DNA of 42,319 bases from Candidatus Dormiibacterota bacterium (GTDB taxonomy: Bacteria; Chloroflexota; Dormibacteria; Aeolococcales; Bog-877): NCBI GenBank assembly GCA_027306655.1, contig DAHUZL010000185.1, positions 1-42,319 on the forward strand. Direction: 5' to 3'. Below the pieces are notes generated by a model. That model was given only the letters and a program-made list of their open reading frames with translations. It made no database searches and was not told the DNA's origin. Below are positions 14,769 through 36,150 of this stretch, piece by piece (position 1 is the first letter of the stretch; every line of letters begins with the position of its first letter). Position numbers and translations under genes: made by a program.

Positions 14769-14907
14769 CGTGGTGCCCCTCCGCATGCGCCGCCCCCCGC
14801 CGACCTCGCCATCCTACCCGGCGCCGCCCGGGTGGGCCGCTCCCGGTGTAACCGGGGGGGGAATGCCCAGGTGAATGGGTCGCCCCAGGGAATCGCGGAG
14901 GATGCGC

Positions 14908-15531
14908 ATGCACCACGACCGTCAGGAATCGGACCGTCTCCCCCTCGCCGCCGAACCGCTCCGGCCCTCCCGGCGCTCCCGGCGGACGCTGCGGCGCCGG
15001 GTATTGGTGCCGCTCGGGCTGGCCGCCCTGACCGCCGGCCTCGCCGCCACCAGCGTCGCCGCCCAGCCGATGACGCCCGGTCGGGCCGCGCCCCGGGCGC
15101 GCGCGACCGCACCGCTGGCGGTCCGCACCGCGATGGTGACCGTGCACGGCCACCTGGAGCTGGTCCTCACCAACGCCGCCGGCCGCACCCTCTACTACCT
15201 CACGTCCGACACCGCGACCCACTACGCCTGCTCGGGCGCGTGCCTCAAGTTCTGGCCGCCGCTGCGCGGGGCCGCGACCAGCGTGAGCCACCCGGCCACC
15301 GTCCACGGACGGTTCACCTTCCACCAGGGGCCCAACGGGCACCAGGTTGAGTACAACGGCCATCCCCTCTACACCTTCAGCGGCGACAAGGGCCCGCGCC
15401 AGGACCACGGCGAGGGCATCCACGCCTTCGGAGGCACCTGGTGGGTCGCCACCCCGGGGCTCCGCCCGGCAGCTCCCACCACGGGCAAGCCCAAGCCCAC
15501 CCCCACCAAGAGCGGCGGGTACGGGTACTGA
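14908..15531 (+). CDS. Secreted COG4315-type protein (Lipoprotein_15 repeats)
   Basis: This 207-residue exported protein has a basic N-terminus (RRSRRTLRRR) followed by LVPLGLAALTAGLAATSVAA, a signal peptide that should be cut before Gln. The mature part contains the COG4315 repeats: GRTLYYLTSDTATHYACSGACLKFWPPL with two cysteines that could form a disulfide, then VEYNGHPLYTFSGDKGP. No lipobox cysteine follows the signal, unlike most relatives annotated as lipoproteins. The function is unknown; the family is found outside the membrane. The tail is Lys/Pro-rich and ends GGYGY. The ATG at 14908 follows GGAGG by six bases. Confidence 0.85.
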   Translation: MHHDRQESDRLPLAAEPLRPSRRSRRTLRRRVLVPLGLAALTAGLAATSVAAQPMTPGRAAPRARATAPLAVRTAMVTVHGHLELVLTNAAGRTLYYLTSDTATHYACSGACLKFWPPLRGAATSVSHPATVHGRFTFHQGPNGHQVEYNGHPLYTFSGDKGPRQDHGEGIHAFGGTWWVATPGLRPAAPTTGKPKPTPTKSGGYGY

Positions 15532-22256: not shown

Positions 22257-22450
22257 GTTCCTACGCAACGGACAGAAGGGACACGCGGTCCCGCTGCCGC
22301 TGATGCGGACCACCGGTCGAGCCGGTGGGCTCCGGGGCGGTCCCGGTTCCTGCTTCGCAGCCACCTGCCAGCGAAACGCTGGACTTCCGGTCGGCTCCAC
22401 AGGCAGTTAACGTCTCCGCCGCACTGGCGGTGACGGGCGGGTGGGCGTCA
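22257..22450 (-). ncRNA. Predicted omega-RNA (reRNA) region at the tnpB 3' end
   Basis: TnpB proteins bind an RNA made from the 3' end of their own gene and the right end of the element; the guide is the flanking DNA. Here tnpB runs to within four bases of the right end, so the RNA scaffold must overlap the C-terminal codons (about residues 380-446, low-complexity and poorly protein-like). The guide would begin at base 22256 reading leftwards. The 5' limit is a guess. No structure was computed. Confidence 0.35.
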
Positions 22451-23601
22451 GCCCACCCCGCAAGATTGCGCGCCGCGTTGAGGTCCCGGTCGATGACCAG
22501 CCCGCAGGCGTCGCAGCGGAAGGTCCGCTCGGCGAGCGACAGCTGGGCCGTGACGGTGCCGCAGCGCGAGCAGCGCTTGCTCGAGGGGAACCAGCGGTCG
22601 GCGACGACCAGCCGGCTCCCGTACCAGCCGCATTTGTAAGCGAGCAGCCGCCGGACCTCGGCGAAGCCGGCGTCGGCCAGCGACCGCGCCAGCCGCCGAT
22701 TGCCGAGCATCCCACGGACGTTGAGGTCTTCAACCACCACCCGGCCGTGGCTCTTGGCCAGCGCGGTGGTGAGCTTGTGCAGGTGGTCCCGCCGCAGCGC
22801 CGCGATGCGAGCGTGGTGGTGCGCCAGCCGGCGGGCGGACTTCGCCCGGCGGCGAGAGCCGCGCCGCTTGCGGCTGTGGGCGCGCGCGAGGCGGCGGAGC
22901 GTGCGCAGGCCCCGGCGCAGCGCCTTCGGGCCGGGGATGACCGTGCCGTCGGACAGCGTGGCGAGCGCCAGCACGCCCAGGTCGACGCCGATGGTGTCGG
23001 TCGCGCCGCTGGTCACGGGAATCACGCGCTCGGCCTCGACCGCCAGCGCCACGAACCACCGGTCCGCCTCGCGGCTGACGGTGGCGGCGGTCACGTGCAC
23101 CGAGCCGGCGGTGACCCGCGCGGCCCACCGGGACGCGTCCTCGCTGAGGCGGACGGGCCCGATCCGCGGCAGCGTCACCGCGCGTCGGTGCAGGGAGAGG
23201 GACCCGGTGAGGCGGAAGGCGTCGTGCGCGCGGCCCTTCTTCTTGAAGCGGGGGAAGTGGACGCGCGGACCCGGGCGCGCGCCTCGGCGGCTGGCCCCGT
23301 AGGCGTGCAGCCCGCGCTCCAGGTCGCGGAACGCCTCCTGCGGGGCGCACTTGCTCACCGCGCCCCACCACGGGATGCCCTCGGGGCTTCGCTTCCAGGC
23401 GTTCCACTCCCGGTGGAGCTGCATCGCCGAGGGCACCCGCACAGTCGGGTCTCCCGCGCGGCGGGCGTCGAGCGCCGCCCGCACGCGCGCGAGCCCCCAG
23501 TTGTAGGCGTACCGCGCCGTGCCGGCGTGGCAGGCCAGGTCCCGGCGCTGGGCCCCGGTCGGGTCGAGGGCGAACCGGAGCGCCTGGCGGACCCTCGCCA
23601 T
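22261..23601 (-). CDS. tnpB: TnpB RNA-guided nuclease of IS607-type element
   Basis: This 446-residue TnpB has the RuvC residues Asp207 (GVDLGVLALATL), Glu291 (VVVEDLNVRGM) and the Asp of DRDLNAARN (371-375). The zinc finger is complete: Cys344, Cys347, Cys363 and Cys366. The N-terminal recognition part (FALDPTGAQRRDLACHAGTARYAYNWGL) is typical. TnpB helps the element persist by cutting empty donor sites. The ATG at 23601 overlaps the tnpA stop (TGATG). The C-terminal 60 residues after NLAGW are Gly/Ser/Thr-rich and probably reflect the embedded RNA more than protein needs. All catalytic residues are intact. Confidence 0.95.
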   Translation of the reverse strand: MARVRQALRFALDPTGAQRRDLACHAGTARYAYNWGLARVRAALDARRAGDPTVRVPSAMQLHREWNAWKRSPEGIPWWGAVSKCAPQEAFRDLERGLHAYGASRRGARPGPRVHFPRFKKKGRAHDAFRLTGSLSLHRRAVTLPRIGPVRLSEDASRWAARVTAGSVHVTAATVSREADRWFVALAVEAERVIPVTSGATDTIGVDLGVLALATLSDGTVIPGPKALRRGLRTLRRLARAHSRKRRGSRRRAKSARRLAHHHARIAALRRDHLHKLTTALAKSHGRVVVEDLNVRGMLGNRRLARSLADAGFAEVRRLLAYKCGWYGSRLVVADRWFPSSKRCSRCGTVTAQLSLAERTFRCDACGLVIDRDLNAARNLAGWADAHPPVTASAAETLTACGADRKSSVSLAGGCEAGTGTAPEPTGSTGGPHQRQRDRVSLLSVA

Positions 23602-24179
23602 CAGGCGGCCTCGACGGGCTGGGCCGCGCACCGCAGGGCCCGGTTGGCCCGGGTCCGCGCCGACCGCCGCCCGTAGAGCCGGGCGCAGAGCCTGGTCACC
23701 ACCTCGGTCATGTCCCCCACGAGGTCATCGGCGACCTCGGCCGGGTCGACCACGACGAGGCGCCGGCCTGCGCCGAGCAGAGCGGCCTCGATGTACTCCG
23801 AGCCCAGGCGGGCCAGCCGGTCGCGGTGTTCGACCACGATCGTGGAGACGCTCGCATCCGCCAGGAGCCGGCGGAGCTCGGGCCGCGCCCCGGTCAGGCC
23901 CGAGCCCCCCTCCGTGACGGCGTGCGCCACCGTCAGATCGTGGGCCAATGCCCAGGCGACCAGGCGCCCGAGCTGGCGGTCGAGGTCCGCCCGCTGGTCA
24001 TGAGAGGACACGCGGGCGTAGCGAGCCACCGCCGGCGCCCCGCCGGCCGGCGCGTGGTCCACCAGGATCGTTCGCGGCCCCACCTTTCGCGCCGGCACCG
24101 GGAGCGTGCCCTCGCGCCACCAGCGCAGTGCGGTCTTGGGGTGAATGCCATTGGCCCGGGCCCAGGCGGCGAGCTTCAC
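23601..24179 (-). CDS. tnpA: IS607-type serine recombinase transposase
   Basis: This 192-residue IS607-type TnpA has an N-terminal MerR-like helix-turn-helix (LAAWARANGIHPKTALRWWREGTL), a linker, then the serine-recombinase domain ARYARVSSHDQRADLDRQL with catalytic Ser58 (Ser59 adjacent). The later helix VVEHRDRLARLGSEYIEAALL is typical of the IS607 group. It moves the element as a circular double-stranded intermediate with little site preference. The start is GTG, about 60 bp from the element end. It is co-translated with tnpB. Confidence 0.95.
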   Translation of the reverse strand: MKLAAWARANGIHPKTALRWWREGTLPVPARKVGPRTILVDHAPAGGAPAVARYARVSSHDQRADLDRQLGRLVAWALAHDLTVAHAVTEGGSGLTGARPELRRLLADASVSTIVVEHRDRLARLGSEYIEAALLGAGRRLVVVDPAEVADDLVGDMTEVVTRLCARLYGRRSARTRANRALRCAAQPVEAA

Positions 24180-25716: not shown

Positions 25717-26769
25717 TCAGGCCGACCCGTCCACCTCGAGGACCAGCTTGCCGGTGACCTGGCCGGCGGCCAGCCGGCGGAACGCCTCCGGCGCCTCCGA
25801 CAGTGGCAGGACAGTATCCACCAGGGGAACCAGCCCGGTCGACTCGGTGAAGGCCAGCAGCGACTGGAACTCAGCGCGGGTTCCCATCGTCGAACCCCGG
25901 ATCGTGAGCTGGCGCCAGAACACCCGGGCCAGGTCGGCCGGGGGATTGGGGCCGGTCGTGGCACCGGCGACCACCACCGTCCCCCCGGGCCGCACCGCCC
26001 GGAGGCTGGTGGCCCAGGTCGCGTCGCCCACCGTTTCGATCACCGCGTCGACGCCGCGGCCGGCGGTGAGGCCGATGATGGCGGCGGCGGCGGCGCGACC
26101 CGGCTCGACCGCGTGCTGGGCGCCTCGCGCGAGCGCCTGGGCGCGGCGCTCCTCGCTCCGGCTGACCACGATGACGCGCAGGCCGGCGGCCAGAGCCAGC
26201 GCCTCGGCGGCGGTGGCCACCCCGCCGCCCGCCCCCTGGATGCACACGGTGTCGCCGGGGCGGCAGGCCGCGCGCGTGAACAGCATCCGGTAGGCGGTGA
26301 GGAACGTGGTCGGCAGGCAGGCGGCGTGGCGCAGGTCGAGGTGGCGCGGGAGCGGGAAGCAGTTGGCGGCCGGCACCACGCAGGCCTCCGCCAGGGTGCC
26401 CTCGTAGGGCCCGTCGCTGAGCATGGCGAAGGTGCGGCAGAGGGTCTCGTCCGGCCCCAGGCACGAATCGCACCGCCCGCAGGTGATGACGCTGTGGCAG
26501 ACGACGGCGGTGCCGGGAGCCAGCATCTCGGGCGTGTCCGGCCCGTAGGCATCGACGATCCCGGCGACGTCGCAGCCGAGGGTCCGGGGATAGGTGATGG
26601 CGCCGCCGCCGACCCCGCGCAGGGTCCAGAGGTCATGATGGTTGAGGCTGGCCGCCCGCACCCGGATGCGAACGAACCCAGGGGGCGGAGCGGGCATGTC
26701 CCTCTCGCCGACGACGAGGTTGACGAGCGGGTCCTCTCCGCCGCCGGCGGCGGCGTACACGCAGAGCAT
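25717..26769 (-). CDS. Zinc-type medium-chain alcohol dehydrogenase/quinone oxidoreductase
   Basis: This 350-residue MDR-superfamily protein has the GroES-like half with NHHDLWTLRGVGG and YPRTLGCDVAGIVDAYG, and a structural-zinc loop CGRCDSCLGPDETLC. The Rossmann half has CIQGAGGGVATAAEALALAAG and GTVVVAGATTGPNPPADLARVFWRQLTIRGSTMGTRAEF. Close relatives are annotated as zinc-binding dehydrogenases with unknown substrates; reduction of an enone or alcohol oxidation with NAD(P) is the family reaction. The ATG at 26769 has GGAGG seven bases upstream; longer frames upstream are rejected. It is divergent from the sigma-factor gene with 113 bp between. Confidence 0.9.
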   Translation of the reverse strand: MLCVYAAAGGGEDPLVNLVVGERDMPAPPPGFVRIRVRAASLNHHDLWTLRGVGGGAITYPRTLGCDVAGIVDAYGPDTPEMLAPGTAVVCHSVITCGRCDSCLGPDETLCRTFAMLSDGPYEGTLAEACVVPAANCFPLPRHLDLRHAACLPTTFLTAYRMLFTRAACRPGDTVCIQGAGGGVATAAEALALAAGLRVIVVSRSEERRAQALARGAQHAVEPGRAAAAAIIGLTAGRGVDAVIETVGDATWATSLRAVRPGGTVVVAGATTGPNPPADLARVFWRQLTIRGSTMGTRAEFQSLLAFTESTGLVPLVDTVLPLSEAPEAFRRLAAGQVTGKLVLEVDGSA

Positions 26770-26882
26770 CGGGCATCCTCCTCGGGCCGGTCGCCGTCGC
26801 CGGGCGCGGCCCCACCGGAGCTGGAGTGTACCGGGGCGCGGAATCGGCTCCCGGAGGCGCGGCCGGCGTAACCTCGGAGCGA

Positions 26883-27527
26883 ATGCCCGATGGGATGCCC
26901 CCCGACCATGGCCAGCCGGCCCCTCCCGCCTCGGTCGCGCCCGCCGGGGCGGAACCGGTCGCGGGAGAGCGCGCGCCGGCGGCGGTCGGGCCCGAGCGCC
27001 AGCGCATCCTCGCCGCCGCTTACCTGGCCGACGCCGGCGTGATCTACCGGTACGTGGTGCGTCGGCTGGGCAGCCCGGCCGACGCCGAGGACGCCACCGC
27101 CGAGACCTTCCTGCGGGCGCTGCGCGGTCGCCAGGCACTCGACCCGTCGCGGGTTCGCGGCCTGCTCTTCACGATCGCCCGGGCGGTGATCGCCGAGCAT
27201 TGGGCCCGCCTCTACAGCGAGGCGCCGGGCCCGGTGGAGGGCCTGGAGGCCGGCGGCCGAGCGCTCGCCGACCCCGGAGCGGGGGTGGACGCCCCCCCCG
27301 ACGGCGCGGCCGGGCTGCCGCTCGCCGAGGAGGCGCTCGACCGGCGGGTGGCCGCCCTGCTCGAGAGCCTGCCTGCCAACTACCGTCGGGTGCTGCAGCT
27401 GCGCTTCCTGGAGGGCTGCTCGGTCCGGGAGGCGGCGGAGCGGATGGGGGTGCGGCCCGGGAACGTCCGGGTCCTCCAGCTCCGCGCCCTGCGACGGGCC
27501 GCCGGGTTGGGGAGTCTCCTGCCGTGA
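26883..27527 (+). CDS. ECF-type RNA polymerase sigma factor
   Basis: This is a 214-residue sigma-70 family protein. Region 2 is YRYVVRRLGSPADAEDATAETFLRALRG (55-82) and region 4 is LPANYRRVLQLRFLEGCSVREAAERMGVRPGNVRVLQLRALRRAAG (163-208). The 45-residue N-terminal leader and the linker between the two regions (about 113-148) are Ala/Gly/Pro-rich. It would direct polymerase to a small regulon. The ATG at 26883 has GGAG just upstream; ATG 26895 is an alternative. The stop overlaps the start of the Rieske gene (GTGA), the arrangement usual for ECF factors and their anti-sigma partners. Confidence 0.92.
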   Translation: MPDGMPPDHGQPAPPASVAPAGAEPVAGERAPAAVGPERQRILAAAYLADAGVIYRYVVRRLGSPADAEDATAETFLRALRGRQALDPSRVRGLLFTIARAVIAEHWARLYSEAPGPVEGLEAGGRALADPGAGVDAPPDGAAGLPLAEEALDRRVAALLESLPANYRRVLQLRFLEGCSVREAAERMGVRPGNVRVLQLRALRRAAGLGSLLP

Positions 27528-28264
27528 CCGACTCGGACGCGGACCGCGAGCTGGAGGAGGCCGCCGACCGGCTGGTGCGGGGTCGCGCCGCCCGGCCGGC
27601 CCGCCCCGGGACCGCGGGCGACCCGCTCGCCCACCAGGTGGCGAGCGCGCTGGTGGGACGTCGCCTCGGCGCCGCCGCGATGCCGGCCCGGCTCCAGCGC
27701 CGGCTCGCCGACCTCGTCGCCCGGGAGCTCGGGTTGGGACCGGCGCCGGACGGGGCGCTGCCGGTCCCAGCCGGGGGGCCGGGGCGCGGCGTCACCCGCC
27801 GCCAGTGGCTCGCCGGCACCGGCGCCGCGCTGGCGGCCGGGATGGCCGGGCTCGCGGTCGGGGAGCTGGGCCCCCACCTCGTCGGCGCCGCCCCCGCTCC
27901 GGAGGCCCCCGACACCCTGGTCCCCGACCAGGGGAGCTGGCGGGCCGTGGCGCCCGCGGCGGCGGTGCGGGTCGACCGTCCGGTCGCGTTCGTCGCCGGC
28001 GCCGTCACCGGGGTCCTCGTCCGCGACCCGACCGGGGCGATCCTCGCGCTGTCCGCCATCTGCACCCACCTCGGCTGCCGGGTGGCCTGGGCCGCCCGCG
28101 ACCAGGGCTTCCTCTGCCCCTGCCACGGGGCGCGCTTCACGCCGACCGGCCAGTTCGCCGGGGGGCCCTGGGGCTCCGCATACCCACGGGGACTGCCTCC
28201 CCTGCCCCGACTGCGCAGCCGGGTCAACGCCCACGGCACGGTCGAGGTCCTCACCACCGTCTGA
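27524..28264 (+). CDS. Rieske [2Fe-2S] protein with cytoplasmic N-terminal domain
   Basis: This 246-residue protein has three parts. Residues 1-90 are charged and helical (DADRELEEAADRLVRGR, PARLQRRLADLVARELG), with no recognised domain. Residues 91-116 (TRRQWLAGTGAALAAGMAGLAVGELG) are a membrane segment with a Tat-like twin arginine. Residues 125-246 are a Rieske domain with Cys180, His182, Cys198 and His201 as cluster ligands and Cys185/Cys200 as the disulfide pair. Rieske proteins carry electrons, usually in cytochrome bc complexes, but no bc genes are nearby. Overlap with the sigma gene suggests it may be a redox-sensing partner of that factor; this is inference. GTG start, GTGA overlap. 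Confidence 0.9.
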   Translation: MTDSDADRELEEAADRLVRGRAARPARPGTAGDPLAHQVASALVGRRLGAAAMPARLQRRLADLVARELGLGPAPDGALPVPAGGPGRGVTRRQWLAGTGAALAAGMAGLAVGELGPHLVGAAPAPEAPDTLVPDQGSWRAVAPAAAVRVDRPVAFVAGAVTGVLVRDPTGAILALSAICTHLGCRVAWAARDQGFLCPCHGARFTPTGQFAGGPWGSAYPRGLPPLPRLRSRVNAHGTVEVLTTV

Positions 28265-28334: not shown

Positions 28335-29666
28335 ATGGGACGTGGTGTCGAAATCGGCGGCGCCCCGGCGCGTCCACCGCGCCGCCATGCGGACATGCCG
28401 TCCGTCAGCCCGATCATCATCGAGTCCCTGCGGCGGCGCGTGGACCGGGTCGCCCGGCTGATGGCGATCGGGATGGGGCGAGCGATCCCGCTCGGGGACA
28501 CCGTGCCCGACGCGGGGGGCTCGGCATTCGGGAGCGAGGTCCTGGCGGCCTGCCGCGACGGGCTCCGGACCCTGCTCGCCCTCTGGGCGGAGGAACGCCC
28601 ACCGTCCACCACCGAGCTGCGCCAGCTCGCCCGGATGGGCGGCCGGCTCGCCAGCACCGGGATGCCCCTGGACTCCATCCTGCGCGCCTACCGGGTGGCG
28701 GCCCTGGTCATCTGGCAGCACGTGGTCGAGATGGTGCGGGTCCACCCGGAGGTCGCGCCCCAGTCGGTGCTCACCGCTGTCGGACCGCTCTTCGACTACC
28801 TCGACGCCATCAGCGTCGCGGTCAGCACCAGCTACCTGGAGACTCGGGAGCGGATCCGGCGGGAGCAGGACCGCCACCACGACCGGATCTTCGCCGAGAT
28901 CCTGGCCGGCGGCGGCGGGCCCGAGCTGACGGCCCAGGCGCTCGCCGCCGGGATCGTGCTCGACTTCCCGTACCGGGTGCTGGCGATCGAGGCCTCGGGG
29001 CCGGATGCCGAAGCCGCGATCGCCACCGCCTGGCGGACCCAGCGGGTCCACCTGGTGCTGGAGCAGGGGTCCGTGCTCGCGCTCGCCCCGGCGGCGACCA
29101 AGCCGGAGACCCTGGTCCGGCTGCTCGGGTCGGCAGGGCCTGAGCCAACCACCCGGGGCGGCCCGGCCACCTGGCGGATCGCGATCGGCGGGGTCGCCTC
29201 CTCCCTCGACACCGTGGCGCCGGCCGCGCGTGGGGCCCGCGACGCCCTCACCGTGGGTCGCATCCTGTGGCCGGCCGAGCGGGTGCACCGGGCGTCCGAG
29301 CTTCACCTCTACCGGGTCTGGCTTCAGGATCTGCCCGGCTTGCGGGAGTTCGTCGAGGCCACGATCGGGACGCTCCTGGAGCGTCAGCGCGCCCGCCGGC
29401 TGCCGCTGCGGGAGACCCTGGAGGCACTGCTCACCCATGAGGGACCGAGCGCCGCCGCGCGGGCGCTCGGCATCCACCGCCACACGCTCCTCTATCGCAT
29501 GGAGAGGATCGAGCGCCTGGTCGGAACCTGGGAGCGGGCCGACCACCGGCTCCGGCTCACCCTCGCCCTCCAGGGAGCACGCCTGCTGGAGGCGCTGTCC
29601 GAGGCCGCCCCCGCCGCGGAGCCAGCGGCGGTGCTTCCGGCACGACCGCTCGTGCCCGTGCGCTGA
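28335..29666 (+). CDS. PucR/CdaR-family transcriptional regulator
   Basis: This protein of about 443 residues ends in the PucR C-terminal helix-turn-helix: LPLRETLEALLTHEGPSAAARALGIHRHTLLYRMERIERLVG. The N-terminal 180 residues are helical (SPIIIESLRRRVDRVARLM, RMGGRLASTGMPLDSILRAYRVAALVIWQHVVEMVR), resembling the RsbR-like N-terminal part seen in CdaR-type regulators. The middle resembles the degenerate GGDEF-like domain of CdaR. Family members respond to metabolites such as purines or sugar acids; the signal here is unknown. The ATG at 28335 lacks a clear ribosome site; ATG 28395 or a TTG at 28323 are alternatives. It stands alone after the Rieske gene. Confidence 0.85.
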   Translation: MGRGVEIGGAPARPPRRHADMPSVSPIIIESLRRRVDRVARLMAIGMGRAIPLGDTVPDAGGSAFGSEVLAACRDGLRTLLALWAEERPPSTTELRQLARMGGRLASTGMPLDSILRAYRVAALVIWQHVVEMVRVHPEVAPQSVLTAVGPLFDYLDAISVAVSTSYLETRERIRREQDRHHDRIFAEILAGGGGPELTAQALAAGIVLDFPYRVLAIEASGPDAEAAIATAWRTQRVHLVLEQGSVLALAPAATKPETLVRLLGSAGPEPTTRGGPATWRIAIGGVASSLDTVAPAARGARDALTVGRILWPAERVHRASELHLYRVWLQDLPGLREFVEATIGTLLERQRARRLPLRETLEALLTHEGPSAAARALGIHRHTLLYRMERIERLVGTWERADHRLRLTLALQGARLLEALSEAAPAAEPAAVLPARPLVPVR

Positions 29667-35391: not shown

Positions 35392-36150
35392 CGACAGTCC
35401 GTTGCCGCTGGGTCGTCGTCTGGGCTGCGCTCGATCCAGCGGCTGGACATCAGCAGGCGGGACAGCGCCGAGCGCTCGCTGTGTAGTTCGAGCCGTTCCA
35501 CAGTACGGAATTGGTCACTGTCCTACTCATCACCTCGGCGCGACCCGCCGAGCGGTTCCCCGCCGACGTCGCCTTCCCCGCAGGCACCGCCGGACCGCCT
35601 CGTCCCGGCGTGGTCATCTGCCAGCCACGCACCATCAGTACACGCCGCATTCACAGGTCCAGAGCAAGCGGGCTGGCAAAAGCCGGGACTCTCCGCCACT
35701 CCGAGCTCCGGCGCCGGGTTCGAGACGCACTCGCCCACCGCTTTGCACTCGACGTCCGCCCGGCACGTGACGGAGCGAGTGGCTCCACACGCTACGGTCA
35801 GTGACCGCTCGAGCGCAAGCACCGGACGGTGGCGGAGCACGAGAAGGAGCGCCTACCTCTCATGCGAGCTCCTCCCAGCCGATCCCCGAGGGCGTGGCCC
35901 CGCGACTGGGCCCCACACGTCGTAGGCCCCGGCCGCGCTCGCTGACTGGATGAGGCCGTCCGCGTAACGGCCGCTCGGGAGACCGCCGCAGGCCGCGGTC
36001 ATCGTAGACGACCCACGCGTAACCAGCGAGATGCGCAGGCGGCAGCCCGCAGCGCGGCGAGTGCGGCAGTACGCGGGGATGACGAGCGGCACGCGCGCCA
36101 ACCAGTTCACCGGTCGCCTGTCCAGCCTAGGGCTGGCGACGGATCGCAGC
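35392..36150. other. About 760 bp without a supported gene
   Basis: Open frames here are short, overlap each other and have skewed composition. The region lies between a small hypothetical gene and the end of a broken BNR-repeat gene, and is probably decayed island DNA. No repeat or RNA gene was recognised. Confidence 0.5.

Follow-up and report, generated by a model that had tools for sequence, protein, structure and literature searches.

An ECF sigma factor gene overlaps the gene for a membrane Rieske protein

We analysed a gene pair within a window of 42,319 nucleotides, by which we mean the whole stretch of DNA under study. The following features lie at the locus:

26868–26883, forward strand: promoter-like element GTAACC-TCGGAG-CGAA upstream of the sigma gene, conserved across the phylum
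26883–27527, forward strand: open reading frame of an ECF sigma factor gene (Pfam, NCBIfam), with the ATG at 26895 as the likelier start
27524–28264, forward strand: gene for a Rieske membrane protein, the proposed anti-sigma factor (GTG start; PF00355; conserved partner)

The sigma reading frame contains Sigma70_r2 (2e-10) and Sigma70_r4_2 (5e-13) domains, both above the Pfam cut-off, and also exceeds the NCBIfam cut-off for TIGR02937. It has region 2 and region 4 only and adjoins a conserved partner gene, as is characteristic of ECF sigma factors. The partner contains a Rieske domain (PF00355, E 1.4e-11, residues 138–215). A preliminary description of this DNA had noted that the sigma stop and the Rieske start share the letters GTGA, which is borne out by the coordinates of the two frames (27527 and 27524), and that no bc or dioxygenase genes adjoin the pair, which also holds, the neighbours being a zinc-type dehydrogenase (25717–26772, reverse strand) and a PucR-type regulator (28335–29663, forward strand). 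It had placed the start of the sigma gene at 26883; as this codon overlaps the promoter-like element, the gene more probably begins at the in-frame ATG at 26895.

We identified at least seven further Rieske-domain genes elsewhere in the genome of the window, and six weaker relatives of the sigma factor. The list of open reading frames also points to a probable IS607-type element at 22261–24179 on the reverse strand, consisting of a TnpB-like frame (22261–23631) and a serine-recombinase-like frame (23601–24179), which apparently splits an ABC transporter ATPase gene into parts near 22303 and 24446.

The sigma/Rieske pair recurs across the phylum

A protein search identified relatives of the Rieske protein in 34 of 61 related genomes, many of them aligning from the first residues, and in nearly all full-length relatives a sigma relative ends at the Rieske start. 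Across 301 genomes of the phylum, a profile search gave 99 with a match, many through the N-terminal segment, and a search of named genomes recovered the full-length protein in Chloroflexi and Dormiibacterota MAGs and in two strains of the actinomycete Kutzneria. Within 215 fetched loci, in which repeats of the same locus are counted, a sigma reading frame lies directly upstream and on the same strand in 142/142 Rieske frames that carry the N-terminal segment of about 70 residues, whereas this was true of only 1/72 Rieske-only frames, and that one is a frame-broken full-length copy.

Removal of redundancy left 110 pairs. In most of them the two genes overlap or stand close together; the overlap places the Rieske start 3 nt before the end of the sigma gene in 48 pairs and 7 nt before it in 21. 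Conservation of the pair in other genomes, which the preliminary description had proposed to check, is therefore phylum-wide, and the presence of 110 non-redundant pairs in other genomes indicates that the pairing is not due to chance. Within the family to which the window belongs, most of the members sampled lack the pair.

A survey of the gene neighbourhoods found no conserved third gene near the pair, all other clusters being clade-specific and many of them shadow reading frames of GC-rich DNA. In particular, no separate anti-sigma gene, whose presence in relatives would have told against the earlier proposal, is conserved beside the pair: only the sigma and Rieske genes recur. The Rieske gene, which lies directly downstream of the sigma gene and encodes a membrane span, has the gene order typical of class I anti-sigma factors. 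By eye, some of the clade-specific genes resemble DUF4331 and PAP2/haloperoxidase proteins (L084, 9131–10510; L216, 7453–8766; L217, 8054–9493).

The Rieske domain retains its cluster ligands and follows a twin-arginine motif

Rieske clusters are electron carriers in respiration and in oxygenases. The outer part of the protein is laid out as follows:

27797–27865, forward strand: twin-arginine-type signal anchor, residues 92–114 (RRQWLAGTGAALAAGMAGLAVGE), assigned from R92/R93 conservation and from TIGR01409 in relatives
27935–28261, forward strand: Rieske [2Fe-2S] domain, residues 138–246 (PF00355, Foldseek, conservation)
28061, 28067, 28115 and 28124, forward strand: codons of the cluster ligands C180, H182, C198 and H201
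28076 and 28121, forward strand: codons of the disulfide cysteines C185 and C200

The four ligands and the disulfide pair reported in the preliminary description are all present, giving the two cysteines, two histidines and disulfide pair of the bc1/b6f Rieske subunits. All six residues are highly conserved among the 110 pairs, both as ligands (C180 in 110, H182 in 103, C198 in 109 and H201 in 109) and as disulfide cysteines (C185 in 110, C200 in 109). We noted a replacement of His182 by Asp in seven pairs (L024, L027, L066, L105, L110, L182 and L184), which look like four separate branches and keep the other ligands.

The same description had credited the protein with one membrane span. A hydrophobic span is indeed present, and its nature can be refined: it is preceded by the arginine pair R92-R93, as in Tat substrates, with R92 conserved in 110/110 and R93 in 105/110 pairs, and two relatives score above the TIGR01409 cut-off. 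We read the span as a twin-arginine signal anchor on the strength of this conservation, and the protein is probably a Tat-type, signal-anchored export substrate.

In the predicted structure, confidence is high for the Rieske fold and low for the helices at residues 3–18, 34–47, 55–68 and 92–104. A Foldseek search with this model returned Rieske proteins only, the best being 8hn2, and the closest matches of the domain are models and structures of PetC, AioB and sulredoxin. The protein thus resembles the Rieske proteins of bc/b6f complexes and AioB, the small subunit of arsenite oxidase, in its fold, ligands and twin-arginine signal. It differs from them in its extra N-terminal segment, in having a sigma factor as partner instead of cytochrome b or AioA, and in scoring far below the cut-offs of the models for respiratory and arsenite-oxidase Rieske proteins (51 bits for the bc1/b6f subunit model, which has a cut-off of 250). 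No cytochrome b or other bc-type partner is conserved near the pair in the neighbourhood survey, in which the sigma gene is the sole conserved neighbour.

The N-terminal segment is linked to sigma factors with and without a Rieske domain

The remaining part of the protein precedes the signal anchor:

27524–27730, forward strand: N-terminal cytoplasmic segment, residues 1–69, proposed anti-sigma domain (profile A4 match at 27542–27730, E 3e-12)

The segment has no match to any Pfam family, and comparison with PDB sequences gave chance matches only, with no convincing solved relative. Modelled alone, it forms three predicted helices (3–18, 34–47 and 55–68) at low confidence (pTM 0.28), and a search of this model against PDB folds likewise returned only chance matches. 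The NCBIfam model NF052375, annotated as "antisigma", is collinear with the segment and the span in several members, although the score of about 19 bits is far below its cut-off of 100.

The segment also occurs in further contexts. For a profile built from the segment only, the second-best place in the genome of the window (E 4e-4) lies directly 3' of the closest paralogue of the sigma factor, at C43, where the segment begins a protein with a membrane helix followed by Big_5 and PD40 domains outside. This second locus (L228, 2385–5743) thus comprises an ECF sigma gene and then a large membrane protein with the segment and Big_5/PD40 domains, which is likely to be a sibling anti-sigma factor. 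Two other genomes (G022 and G023) have the same layout, and in a third (G189) a sigma gene is followed by the N-terminal segment. Two more (G246 and G254) encode a degenerate sigma-like protein that lacks both the Rieske domain and the span and has the segment fused to its C-terminus. Natural fusions of this sigma-like/segment kind were seen at L058 (187–939, forward) and L059 (3–902, reverse), with larger regions in L217 and L216; those at L058 and L059 lie directly upstream of an ordinary sigma/Rieske pair.

The segment had previously been called unassigned, which remains accurate as regards Pfam; its recurrence in sigma-linked contexts without a Rieske domain (C43, G022, G023, G246 and G254) nevertheless gives it an association of its own. 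Distances between sigma factors also track distances between segments (partial r 0.58, compared with 0.38) more closely than the Rieske domain accounts for. Taken together, the sigma-linked contexts, the fusions, the collinearity with NF052375 and the distance correlation suggest, as their best reading, that the N-terminal 70 or so residues of the Rieske protein are a putative sigma-binding anti-sigma domain.

We also considered that the Rieske protein might be a working electron carrier whose gene is under sigma control, with another role for the segment and regulation of the sigma factor elsewhere. The ligands are kept as in respiratory proteins, other genes behind the upstream element (see below) look like electron carriers, and a second, ordinary Rieske gene lies downstream in two relatives. 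However, every locus with the segment has the sigma gene, and the segment occurs in sigma-linked contexts that have no Rieske domain; moreover, the lack of a conserved cytochrome b or other partner nearby and the low scores against the respiratory models speak against such a role. We consider this explanation very unlikely.

A short-spaced element lies upstream of the pair and of genes for exported proteins

We identified a common element, GTAACC-N6(7)-CGTA, in the regions upstream of the pairs. In an alignment of these regions, GTAAC occurs in 98/110 and GTAACC in 74/110, against 8/110 on the reverse strand. The exact arrangement GTAAC-Nk-CGTA was found in 15 of the 110 at k=6 and in 50 at k=7, with at most two at any other k, whereas the reverse strand gave one (k=6) and three (k=7) of 110 loci. 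We rejected a canonical GGAAC-N14..18-CGT autoregulation motif, which is present in only 1/95 upstream regions.

The two words of the element are equal to known ECF -35 and -10 elements. The promoters of the ECF16 group have been described as (T/C)GTAAC-N16/17-CGAA (PMC3420878) and those of EcfF as GTAAC-N14-15-CG(t/a) (PMC8315932); the SigD promoter of C. glutamicum is GTAAC-15 nt-CTCGAT. Relative to the ECF16 pattern, GTAAC-N16/17-CGAA, the element has the words with a spacer of 6–7, and its gap is about 10 bp shorter than the known gaps of about 14–17 bp. A normal sigma factor is therefore not expected to contact both words. In several genes the start codon lies about 9–12 nt after CGTA, a distance that would suit a -10 element with a leaderless mRNA. 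Either the sigma factor uses an unusual promoter geometry or another factor reads the element.

Total copies of the element per genome are not above a backward-read control, and the argument therefore rests on which genes lie downstream, and not on counts. A scan of the window identified a second copy:

14848–14863, forward strand: element copy GTAACC-GGGGGG-GGAA upstream of a lipoprotein gene
14875–15531, forward strand: exported PF03640 (Lipoprotein_15) protein, proposed regulon member (PF03640 E 7e-19; element upstream)

GTAACC occurs a third time in the window, at 36019 (GTAACCAGCGAGATGC); this copy was not counted, since neither CGTA nor GAA stands where the second word would be expected. 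The Lipoprotein_15 gene is also preceded by the element in a genome of the same genus (G001).

Scans of 25 pair-bearing genomes placed the element ahead of sigma genes and also ahead of Lipoprotein_15 genes (seven genomes), cupredoxin-like genes (four genomes, Kutzneria among them) and genes for NHL-type and molybdopterin-type exported proteins. In Kutzneria buriramensis (L077 and L379), a gene for a cupredoxin-like lipoprotein directly follows the Rieske gene and has its own element 9 nt before the ATG. The element lies upstream of 20/33 PF03640 genes in pair-bearing genomes and of 0/12 in pair-lacking genomes (Fisher p 3e-4, on genes that are not phylogenetically independent). Export-like products, as judged by a rough measure of hydrophobicity on frames from a simple ORF caller, follow 26/47 copies of the element, with about ten of the rest preceding sigma genes, compared to 1/25 copies of the backward-read control.

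These data bear on the identity of the factor that reads the element. The sigma/anti-sigma pairing could be correct while GTAACC-N6-CGTA serves a separate transcription factor as its operator, which would leave the lipoprotein and cupredoxin genes outside the sigma regulon. A gap unfit for sigma contacts to both words and the sharply fixed spacing are consistent with such an operator. Against this, the words are those of ECF promoters and the start codons of several genes are placed as noted above, no genes other than those of sigma and the Rieske protein are conserved around the sigma-upstream element, and PF03640 genes have the element in front of them in pair-bearing genomes alone. We regard a separate operator as rather unlikely, and favour GTAACC-N6(7)-CGTA as a candidate recognition sequence of the sigma factor itself.

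The nature of the downstream genes is also informative about the signal. Cofactor proteins leave the cell through Tat in folded form. A protein without its cluster would accordingly not be exported but degraded, which would release the sigma factor; the same sigma/anti-sigma pair could then report cluster assembly or iron supply, and not the external redox state. The twin-arginine motif is almost invariant, which suggests that export is probably coupled to cluster insertion, and the disulfide cysteines are kept too. However, the genes linked to the element encode exported proteins, partly of copper or molybdenum type, and among the annotated part of the element-linked genes we recognised none for iron uptake or cluster assembly. 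A signal of this kind appears improbable to us, and we prefer the redox state or integrity of the external cluster as the putative input of the pair.

A proposed sigma/anti-sigma system with a Rieske sensor

The gene pairing, the linkage of the segment to sigma factors, the conservation of the ligands and the Tat motif and the common upstream element, all obtained by computation, lead us to propose an apparently undescribed ECF sigma/transmembrane anti-sigma system, with a Rieske [2Fe-2S] domain as outer sensor and an exported regulon transcribed from GTAACC-N6-CGTA promoters. We assign this reading a probability of roughly 0.7. Its putative parts are that the segment binds sigma, the assumed topology, a signal of redox type, the release of sigma and the reading of the element by this sigma factor. 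The N-terminal 70 or so residues of the Rieske protein would hold the sigma factor in the cytoplasm, and the Tat-type signal anchor would hold the cluster domain, already folded, at the outer surface of the membrane. If the cluster then changes in redox state or in integrity, the Rieske protein may be altered or destabilised and thereby free the sigma factor, which would use GTAACC-N6-CGTA promoters to transcribe both its own operon and the genes of a few exported proteins. The proposed regulon would include Lipoprotein_15 repeat proteins, cupredoxin-like proteins and, in some genomes, a molybdopterin oxidoreductase. That the Rieske cluster may report redox state to the sigma factor, as the preliminary description suggested, finds indirect support in the conservation of the ligands and in the exported and partly redox-type genes behind the element.

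A close parallel in promoter words and gene layout is found in the ECF16 systems (Caulobacter SigF-NrsF, Bradyrhizobium EcfF-OsrA and Brucella BcrS-AbcS), in which a small ECF sigma factor forms an operon with a membrane anti-sigma factor. These systems respond to oxidants and control a small regulon, and the words of their promoters, (T/C)GTAAC followed by CGAA or CG(t/a), are shared with the element described here (PMC3420878, PMC8315932). They differ in that their anti-sigma factor, a DUF1109 protein, has six membrane helices as well as a reactive cysteine, in place of a one-span Rieske protein, and in that their promoter spacer is about 14–17 bp, compared to 6–7 here.

Class I transmembrane anti-sigma factors of the RseA, RskA and RsiW type (PMC7406223) are alike in possessing a short N-terminal cytoplasmic domain, for which helices are predicted here, one span and an outer sensor domain, and in being encoded directly after the sigma gene. 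Their N-terminal domain is a four-helix fold that contacts sigma2 and sigma4, compared to three low-confidence helices predicted for the segment. The Rieske protein, however, has no sequence match above any curated anti-sigma cut-off, and its outer domain is a Rieske cluster; the word "Rieske" is absent from the main text of the class I survey (PMC7406223). Literature searches combining Rieske with anti-sigma, ECF or redox sensor returned no described Rieske anti-sigma factor, although the 2021 re-classification of ECF sigma factors (10.1093/nar/gkaa1229) may list the group.

The occurrence of the GTAACC-N6(7)-CGTA element upstream of most of these sigma genes and of genes for exported proteins is an addition to the preliminary description. 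An anti-sigma factor with a [2Fe-2S] cluster, like that proposed here, has been reported in Streptomyces coelicolor: RsmA, which unlike the Rieske protein is soluble and cytoplasmic, belongs to a different family and is not known to have a Rieske domain or a membrane span. The full proposal, that an outer Rieske domain is the redox sensor of an ECF system whose sigma factor uses promoters spaced by 6–7 bp, with the -35-like and -10-like words nearer to each other by one helical turn than in known ECF promoters, to express a regulon of exported electron carriers, in Chloroflexota as in Kutzneria, is tentative, and we view it as somewhat doubtful in that complete form.

A Rieske outer domain on a probable anti-sigma factor would provide a direct route from external electron flow or oxidants to transcription. 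Should the short-spaced element be the promoter, it would call into question the geometry usually ascribed to ECF promoters. The pair occurs widely among Chloroflexota lineages for which metagenomes are the main source of knowledge, with many soil Chloroflexota among the carriers; it has a testable set of target genes, and it is also present in Kutzneria, where such testing is possible.
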